Below, piece after piece: positions 54,238 through 56,186 of a stretch of DNA of 64,000 bases (position 1 is its first letter; each line of letters starts with the position of its first letter). The position numbers and the translations under genes were made by a program. The stretch lies in NCBI GenBank assembly GCA_002730875.1, contig PCBI01000019.1, positions 248,001 through 312,000 on the forward strand, given 5' to 3'. The DNA comes from Spirochaetaceae bacterium. Lineage in GTDB: Bacteria > Spirochaetota > Leptospiria > Leptospirales > Leptonemataceae. The notes under the pieces are model-generated. The model saw nothing but the letters and a program-made list of their open reading frames with translations, was not told the DNA's origin and ran no database searches.

Positions 54238-55484
54238 AGCTATTGCTACCTTCTTCCGCAAAGCTGGCAAGCCAAACCCGTGAGGCGGGCAGGAGCGGAA
54301 ATTCTTCCGTGGGATCCGCCTTTTCCGTGCATCAGCGTGAAAGCGCGCCCGCCGCCTTCGTCGCTCTGCGCCCGTCGGCTCTCGACATCCTGGTCGCTCT
54401 CGGACATCCTGTCCTCCGCGACACTGGGACTTCCTGTCCGGCGGCTTCGCCGACATTGGAACATCCTCGTTCGGCATCCACGGCGCCCGGGACACTTGTC
54501 CATCCGTGGACATCGAGTTGGCGGGTTCTCATCCGGAAAAGGTGGTTTGGCTTTGCCAAACTTCGGTAGAGCTGCCGCCCTGCGGTTGGCCCCCTCCAGT
54601 AGTGGGGGTTTTGTTCTGCGATTTCTGGTCGGTTCTTACCGGAGCTTTGTGTTGGGGGGGGGGAGACTGATTTATGGGGTGTATCGAAAAGCGAAGGCAC
54701 CAGGGCAGGGGAAGAGGACCCGTCTCCTCATTAGATTACGTTCGGCCGACTCCCGGGGGGCCCGCCGATTGAATGTCGTATCGAAAAGTGAGGCCAGGAT
54801 GGCCGAACGTCTGGAAGTCGAGCCAGGAAGGCTCGGTCCCTCTCGGGCCTCCTGCCCTTCGGGACACTTGTCCGTCCGTGGACTTCGCCTTCGAACTCGA
54901 TGCGAAACTCAATCCGATAGGGGGGGGAGAGGACCCCTTAGCGGTTCGGAGAGGGGGGGATGCTTCGCTGACTGCGTCAGCTCAGACCACTCGCTTTGCT
55001 CGTGGGCGAACCTGAAACAGGGGTAGCTTGCTTCGCAAGCATTTTAAGTTACTGCCGCCTTCCAGTTGGCGGGTTCTCATCCGGAACAAGTGGTTTGGCT
55101 TTGCCAAACTTCGGTAGAGCTGCCGCCCCGCGGTTGGCCCCCTCCAGTAGTGGGTGTTTTGTTCTGCGATTTCTGGTTGGTTCTTACCGGAGATTTTGTT
55201 GGGGGGGAGACTGATTTATGGGGTGTATCGAAAGGCGAAGCCACGAGGGCTGAGCGCCCGGAAGTCGAGCCAGGGAAGGCTCGGTCCCTCTCGGGCCTCC
55301 TGCCCTTCGGGACACTTGTCCGTCCCTGGACTTCGCCTTCGAACTCGATGCGAAACTCAATCCGATAGGGGGGGGAGAGGACCCCGCTAATGGGGATTTG
55401 CGAAAAGCGAAGGCAGGAAGCCTGAGCCTCGCAAATCTGAACAGGACGTTCAGCTTTGCGAGTCGCAATTCCCCCTTAGCGGTT
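54238..55484. repeat. non-coding direct-repeat array adjoining tRNA-Ser
   Basis: About 1.25 kb with no credible gene. Block A (54516-54699) recurs at 55064-55242 at high identity. Block B (54777-54937) recurs at 55225-55385. The 28-bp segment 54934-54961 recurs exactly at 55472-55499, where it contains the last 15 bases of tRNA-Ser plus 13 flanking bases. A third copy of part of block B (GGGACACTTGTCC) lies at 54489-54502. G-tracts of 10, 8, 7 and 7 bases, and hairpins such as GGTTTGGC-TTT-GCCAAAC, GCTTGC-TTC-GCAAGC and GATTTGCGA/TCGCAAATC, are spread through it. Unequal A copies include a 109-bp extra piece (54700-54808). Confidence 0.85.
54934..54961. repeat. copy 1 of 28-bp repeat carrying the tRNA-Ser 3' end
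   Basis: Identical to 55472-55499, including 15 bases of the acceptor and T-stem 3' side of tRNA-Ser. Looks like an attachment-site-type or duplication scar. Confidence 0.8.
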
Positions 55485-55499
55485 CGGAGAGGGGGGGAT
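55472..55499. repeat. copy 2 of 28-bp repeat, overlapping the tRNA-Ser 3' end
   Basis: Identical to 54934-54961. The first 13 bases lie beyond the tRNA, the rest inside its 3' end. Confidence 0.8.
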
Positions 55500-55569
55500 T
55501 CGAACCCCCGGTAGTGTTACCTACACTTGCTTTCCAAGCAAGCACCTTAAACCGCTCGGACACCTCTCC
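55485..55569 (-). tRNA. tRNA-Ser(GGA)
   Basis: 85 bases, minus strand. Acceptor 5' GGAGAGG pairs with 3' CCTCTCC and is followed by discriminator G; anticodon stem-loop CTTGC TTGGAAA GCAAG carries anticodon GGA (reads UCC/UCU). The variable arm is long (TGTAGGTAACACTA region), as in class II tRNAs, and the T-stem is GGGGG/CCCCC around TTCGAAT. The CCA is not encoded (AACC follows). Preceded by tadA upstream and adjoining the repeat array. Confidence 0.92.
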
Positions 55570-55715: not shown

Positions 55716-56186
55716 TTAGGGATGTCTGGATTCTCGCTGCTTCTCGAAGAAACGGGTAAGCAGGGCGGAGGAACGGTTTTCATAATCTTCTAGAAGTCGC
55801 CAGGCTGGATGATGATTTATTTCGTCCTTCAAGTTCTCCAGGAGTGTGGAGAGTCCGGGCCAGCGAGTAGAGGGCGCCATAAAGGCCACCGCAGAGATCC
55901 GAGAATGCAAGATCAGTCCGCTGCACATGATACAGGGCTCTAGAGTGGAAATCAGAATAGCATCCGGGATTCTTTCTGATTTAAGGTGCTCACAGGCAGC
56001 CTGGATTGCCTTAAGCTCGGCATGCCAGGAAGGATCTACTTTTTCCAGAATCCGATTACGGCCTTCGCCAAGAATCTGGCCCCGGGAATCGCATACCACT
56101 GCGCCTATGGGCGTTTCGCCATGATCGAAGGCCTCGTGGGCCAGTTCCAGTGCTCTGATACAGGCGCGGTGCGGAGGGTGTAGCAT
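55716..56186 (-). CDS. tadA: tRNA-specific adenosine deaminase
   Basis: Converts A34 to inosine in tRNA-Arg(ACG). 156 residues: zinc/catalytic motif WHAELKAI (His, Glu) and PCIMCSG (Cys-x2-Cys); an N-terminal helix HRACIRALELAHEAF. Located 146 bases upstream of tRNA-Ser. Could be a related deaminase, but the length and motifs fit TadA. Confidence 0.88.
   Translation of the reverse strand: MLHPPHRACIRALELAHEAFDHGETPIGAVVCDSRGQILGEGRNRILEKVDPSWHAELKAIQAACEHLKSERIPDAILISTLEPCIMCSGLILHSRISAVAFMAPSTRWPGLSTLLENLKDEINHHPAWRLLEDYENRSSALLTRFFEKQRESRHP

Follow-up and report, generated by a model that had tools for sequence, protein, structure and literature searches.

tRNA-linked repeats (TLRs) have been known in Escherichia coli since 1978 and have no known function (PMC8144298). 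Twenty-two units occur at ten loci of strain K-12, each with a 3' stretch of 18–19 bp that is the end of the upstream tRNA or rRNA, and an early report of a function for the tyrT unit has been retracted (PMC8144298). RrA, RrB and RrF, sRNAs encoded downstream of E. coli 5S rRNA, are likewise trailer elements whose end repeats the 3' end of the RNA upstream, but they belong to an rRNA operon, lie between two terminators and bind Hfq and CsrA; the mapped 3' end of RrB lies 3 nt beyond the repeat, which the authors proposed to be a cleavage or processing signal (PMC8144298). Our literature search on rtT, tyrT and Leptospira repeats turned up one paper on E. coli TLRs, an editorial that cites it and nothing further; subscription journals were outside its scope, so published TLRs beyond the enterobacteria could have been missed.

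Direct repeats of a tRNA 3' end are also found at integrase att sites, and the T-loop is a usual crossover zone of tRNA-targeting integrases. The window analysed here, a 64,000-nt stretch of spirochaete DNA, contains an array beside tRNA-Ser(GGA) that shares such a repeat but has no integrase, cargo or empty site. We consider it likely that this array is made up of TLRs lying within the 3' trailer of tRNA-Ser(GGA).

The array downstream of tRNA-Ser(GGA)

The features of the locus are collected in Table 1. As tRNA-Ser(GGA) is read from the minus strand, the array follows it as a 3' trailer and is not a leader. Of the original prediction that two unequal modules precede the tRNA, the modules themselves stood (147 nt at 93% identity, 54513/55061, and 112 nt at 99%, 54826/55274) and their placement did not. 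They are unequal since each unit has an additional stretch of its own, ~90 nt in unit I and ~98 nt in unit II, at different places. The predicted 28-bp duplication was confirmed, with exact copies that start at 54934 and 55472, 538 apart, and in which 15 nt are the 3' end of the tRNA (55485–55499); G-tracts of 10 in one copy and 7 in the other were also as predicted. On the tRNA strand, units I and II align over long stretches at ~95% identity, interrupted by indels, which supports the earlier suggestion of a tandem-duplication product.

Past its GGATGAGAACC, unit II continues into the palindrome-rich segment, the hairpins of which are of the GGACA..TGTCC type; similar ones were seen inside the Asp unit of the window's genome (G000) and the Asn unit of G001. 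For the rest of the array, matches in the genome were limited to the 28-bp repeat and one 36-nt match. A single terminator-like site was found on the tRNA strand (54804–54792, within unit II), in a scan whose total was about that expected from shuffles. Nothing but the tRNA reached the gathering score in an Rfam scan of the window.

Table 1. Coordinates of features at the tRNA-Ser(GGA) locus, in positions of the window.
Feature	Position	Strand	Basis
tRNA-Ser(GGA), without encoded CCA	55485–55569	minus	ARAGORN; Rfam RF00005, 55.4 bits
28-bp repeat, copy 1: final 15 tRNA nt, from within the T-loop, and 13 trailer nt	55472–55499	minus	
28-bp repeat, copy 2: tail copy (54947–54961) closing unit I and the same 13 nt starting unit II	54934–54961	minus	
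Composite unit I, 538 nt: trailer hairpins, then TLR core, then tail copy at the end	54947–55484	minus	
TLR core of unit I: GGATGAGAACC (55072–55082), GGTTCG (55007–55012), hairpins, tail	54947–55082	minus	
Composite unit II, broken off right after its own GGATGAGAACC (54524–54534), without tail	54513–54946	minus	
Hairpin-rich segment of ~90 nt, unit I only	55386–55475	minus	Unit alignment
Segment of ~98 nt, unit II only	54707–54804	minus	Unit alignment
Palindrome-rich segment, fragments of which match ~17 other places in the genome	54359–54516	none	

On the tRNA strand, the genes run ftsH, a hypothetical gene, an acyl-CoA dehydrogenase, a tadA-like deaminase, tRNA-Ser, the array and an unnamed lipoprotein-like ORF, which is so labelled from its N-terminus and has no Pfam match. 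Gene order upstream of the tRNA is conserved within the genus; in the relatives, the few kilobases read downstream did not contain the two genes that lie past the array. The tadA-like gene (55716–56186) is 60–67% identical among same-genus genomes and the adjoining acyl-CoA dehydrogenase ~96%; a search of genome contigs for tadA neighbours returned distant genomes only.

Tail copies at other tRNAs and in related genomes

Among the 37 tRNAs of the window's genome, an exact copy of the last 15 nt was detected downstream of Ser-GGA and Asp-GTC only, and no such copy was present upstream of any of them. Tail copies thus exceed chance, with two of 37 tRNAs having one downstream and none upstream. 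The copy downstream of Ser-GGA was found in all four of the genomes G000, G001, G003 and G004, and others lie downstream of Asp-GTC in G000 and G003 and of Asn-GTT in G001. Upstream, no tail copy was detected for the ~115 tRNAs of these four genomes, some of which are at contig ends with little downstream sequence. G002, a fragmented fifth genome of the genus, was outside the tRNA-Ser trailer comparison.

The original prediction had called for comparison of copy number among relatives, and this proved variable: at tRNA-Ser(GGA), G004 has two tail copies (spacing 132 and 288), G003 has a 36-bp repeat at a spacing of 290, and G001 has a single, slightly diverged copy. An identical structure in all relatives, which the same prediction named as counter-evidence, is not what we observed, as the orthologous arrays of all three same-genus genomes read vary in spacing and flanks.

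Repeats were also seen beyond these first units. The tRNA-Asp loci of G000 and G003 (L150, L173) have more, interrupted tail copies past the first unit and, beyond them, a long near-repeat of the first trailer stretch. Downstream of the G003 array (L173) is a low-complexity stretch with runs of TCTTCGTC and TCCTCGTCATC; on the opposite strand it probably codes for acidic residues. G007, of another genus, has 70-bp tandem repeats of the tRNA-Asp 3' half after tRNA-Asp (L235 and L236 on contig C70, L232 on C31), and both contigs end within the repeat array. Some contigs of G003 (C9, C14, C3, C18, C34) and G001 (C36, C39, C34, C63) start or stop less than ~30 nt from a tRNA gene, as if the assembly had been broken by tRNA-gene repeats.

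Comparison with the TLRs of E. coli

A complete TLR unit would form a stem-loop that starts with an anti-tail complementary to the tRNA end and continues with a loop near AUGAGAA, a small hairpin and then UUCG, and variable hairpins; it would close with GAGUA-like bases and, after them, the 3' strands of T-stem and acceptor copied from the tRNA 3' end. In E. coli K-12, we found this order after tyrV and tyrT as anti-tail, AUGAGAA, hairpin, UUCGA, hairpins, GAGUA and a tail with CCA. The spirochaete units share with the E. coli TLRs, including RttR/RtT of the tyrT operon (RF00391), their place directly downstream of a tRNA on the same strand, their tandem units, a tail copy that begins at the last T-loop bases, the closing anti-tail (in E. 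coli clear for tyr, argV and lysW) and, in intact units, the AUGAGAA-like, UUCG and GAGUA-like motifs. The tail copies of the K-12 tyr, arg and lys loci share their starting point in the T-loop with those of the spirochaetes.

Several of the characters by which TLRs are recognised are present at the window locus. Where TLRs lie immediately downstream of a tRNA or rRNA in the same orientation, so does the array; its 3'-end identity covers 15 tRNA nt, runs through 28 bp and starts at the E. coli T-loop boundary, and the tail copy is shorter than the 18–19 bp of E. coli because CCA is not encoded. TLRs have one to five copies per locus at several loci per genome, and units occur at both Ser and Asp loci in G000 and G003. 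In contrast to those of E. coli, the spirochaete units are found in the Leptonema illini family at Ser, Asp and Asn tRNAs, lack an encoded CCA in the tail, have a spacing of 98–538 nt and are mixed with other hairpin modules and dispersed palindromes, and the window has one eroded and one truncated unit.

This anatomy bears on the suggestion, made in the original prediction, of a remnant of a deleted integrated element; the 28-bp copies would be its attL and attR, and ~510 bp of the element would be left between them. Such a remnant would fit tail copies that start in the T-loop, where integrases often cross over, and the lack of synteny, in the stretch read, between the genes downstream of the array and those of relatives. 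The prediction was right that integrase is absent: none was found among the flanking genes scanned, and the contig has no tyrosine recombinase closer than ~150 kb. That absence argues against a remnant, as do the lack of any recognised gene remnant and the relatives' sites, which carry different material and are not empty. A remnant does not predict a closing anti-tail or core motifs, nor that these would recur in E. coli and in each genome of the genus that was read, and we regard it as very improbable.

Folding and tail/anti-tail pairing

In minimum-energy folds of the units outside the window, the tail copy pairs, in whole or in part, with an upstream complement made up of acceptor 5' and T-stem 5' sequence, whereas few tail bases are paired in the fold of the window unit. 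We assessed this pairing as a duplex of tail and unit body against 1000 dinucleotide shuffles of the body, and it was significant in about half of the units tested. P was 0.001–0.007 for G001, G003, G004 (two units), G012 and E. coli tyrV, tyrT and argV, 0.026 for G003 Asp and 0.033 for lysW. It was not significant for the window (P 0.088), G000 Asp (0.22) and G001 Asn (0.54), nor for argQ, argZ, lysT, lysZ, lysV, lysQ and rrfB; the 5S rRNA trailer element thus differs in that its tail had no significant anti-tail in this test. Unit bodies favoured the tail of their own tRNA over those of six other classes, ranking it first in 12 of 23 cases (class-label permutation P 0.0003), a result obtained without the covariance model R1 described below. 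The predicted folds and the pairing of units outside the window support the earlier idea of a structured RNA, and the closing hairpin of intact units is a concrete, though predicted, RNA structure.

Searches with covariance models

The enterobacterial Rfam model RtT (RF00391), which was given no tRNA positions, matched the G003 unit at 29.1 bits and the G004 units at 25.7 and 24.4 bits. Over 100 genomes of the phylum it gave four places at E ≤ 1: G003, G004, G012 (34.6 bits) and one likely chance match, in G041 (20.4 bits), which was set aside as no tRNA adjoins it. G012, of another genus, has a two-unit array at the end of a short contig without a tRNA, so that its link to tRNA-Ser is inferred from the tail. 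The window units had no RtT match at E ≤ 5. No spirochaete unit reached the gathering cut-off of 45 bits, the best being that of G012, and for this reason we do not assign the spirochaete units to Rfam RtT.

We built R1 from two E. coli and four spirochaete units and trimmed some internal loops and bulges by hand; MAFFT alignments A1 and A2, in which variable loops were misplaced, were left out. Since R1 was trained on both groups, its matches cannot show homology between them. In the 64-kb window R1 matched once, at 54947–55063 on the minus strand (20.7 bits, E 0.017), and its core test found motifs and tail in the window unit with a weak anti-tail; the other units were clear. Across 48 genomes of the class at E ≤ 0.05, it recovered the units on which it was trained and added two in G010, one immediately after tRNA-Ser(GGA) and the other immediately after tRNA-Ser(CGA). 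In 393 genomes of the phylum (E ≤ 0.003, stricter filters) only the same four genomes were matched. Among 17 genomes from elsewhere, matches were found in Atlantibacter (Tyr, Ser) and Mixta (Lys, Ser), all linked to tRNAs, as well as one in Desulfomicrobium (L262) that we take as chance, with no tRNA adjoining. R1-detected TLRs are thus those of four Leptonema-family genomes and the Enterobacterales.

The strict linkage to tRNAs, the patchy spread over two distant groups and the inverted copies of T-arm sequence inside units would also suit selfish or homing DNA elements that enter tRNA 3' ends through their hairpins, any RNA role being secondary. The array may have a miniature mobile origin, one of the options in the original prediction. 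No enzyme is known to be associated with such elements, however, and REP/RAYT mobilisation was ruled out by the absence of the REP-associated Y1 transposase (PF01797) from G000; Y1 is also absent from G003 and from G009, a genome of the same family. R1 found no copy away from a tRNA in the 48 class genomes, except in G012, where the contig ends inside the array. Taken together, these points leave a selfish element as the main explanation quite improbable.

The paired positions were compared in an alignment of 27 units (A4), in which 84% of cells were paired, against 45–59% with the partners slid, and double changes were seen in 18 of 20 pairs; A4 was fitted to R1 and likewise does not prove homology. 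The R1 match at L140 (4268–4362, minus) reads a palindromic unit in antisense and was rejected; one of the 27 aligned matches is such an antisense reading. The covariation of paired columns is one of the observations that speak against a purely neutral origin, in which tandem duplication and gene conversion of trailer DNA would carry the tail copy as a passenger in a functionless structure. The identity of units I and II, with their indels, and the fast turnover among species are what such a process would leave, and template switching could still produce anti-tails. The anti-tails, however, best fit their own tRNA class, and a constant T-loop boundary is unexpected from random duplications; we regard neutral duplication as unlikely.

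A putative tRNA-end-mimicking trailer RNA

Our reading of the array as TLRs is based on its position, sense orientation and tail copy, on the anti-tail pairing of about half of the units, on covariation and on recurrence at several tRNAs in two distant groups. We suggest that a unit would be transcribed along with its tRNA, with transcription running on past it, and that the helix of tail and anti-tail would imitate the acceptor/T stack of the tRNA. The tail of a tRNA is the part that directs its 3' maturation. Processing of tRNA 3' ends at each tail may thus free a small trailer RNA with a defined end, by the logic of the cleavage signal proposed for RrB in E. coli (PMC8144298). The window locus itself looks decaying or recombining, since the anti-tail of unit I is weak (tail and motifs are kept) and unit II is a truncated tandem copy, and its array may no longer be working.

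More tentatively, TLRs could be one class of tRNA-end-mimicking trailer RNAs that the Leptonema family shares with the Enterobacterales. The closing helix of these RNAs would track the acceptor and T-stem sequence of the host tRNA so that the tRNA processing machinery excises a small RNA; related units would then lie at many tRNAs, unannotated outside the enterobacteria. Convergence is possible because parts of the unit derive from the T-arm of the tRNA. Tail, anti-tail and GGUUCG piece all follow tRNA sequence and GGAUGAGAACC resembles a degenerate reverse complement of the T-arm; the GAGUA-like bases that precede the tail are alone in lacking an obvious counterpart in the tRNA. Descent, transfer or repeated origin could each account for units in both groups.

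A direct repeat of a tRNA 3' end beside its tRNA is thus not, by itself, evidence of an integrated element. With a second, distant group that has TLRs at several tRNAs, comparative data now extend beyond E. coli alone, and they suggest that what is conserved is a defined helix linked to the identity of the tRNA.
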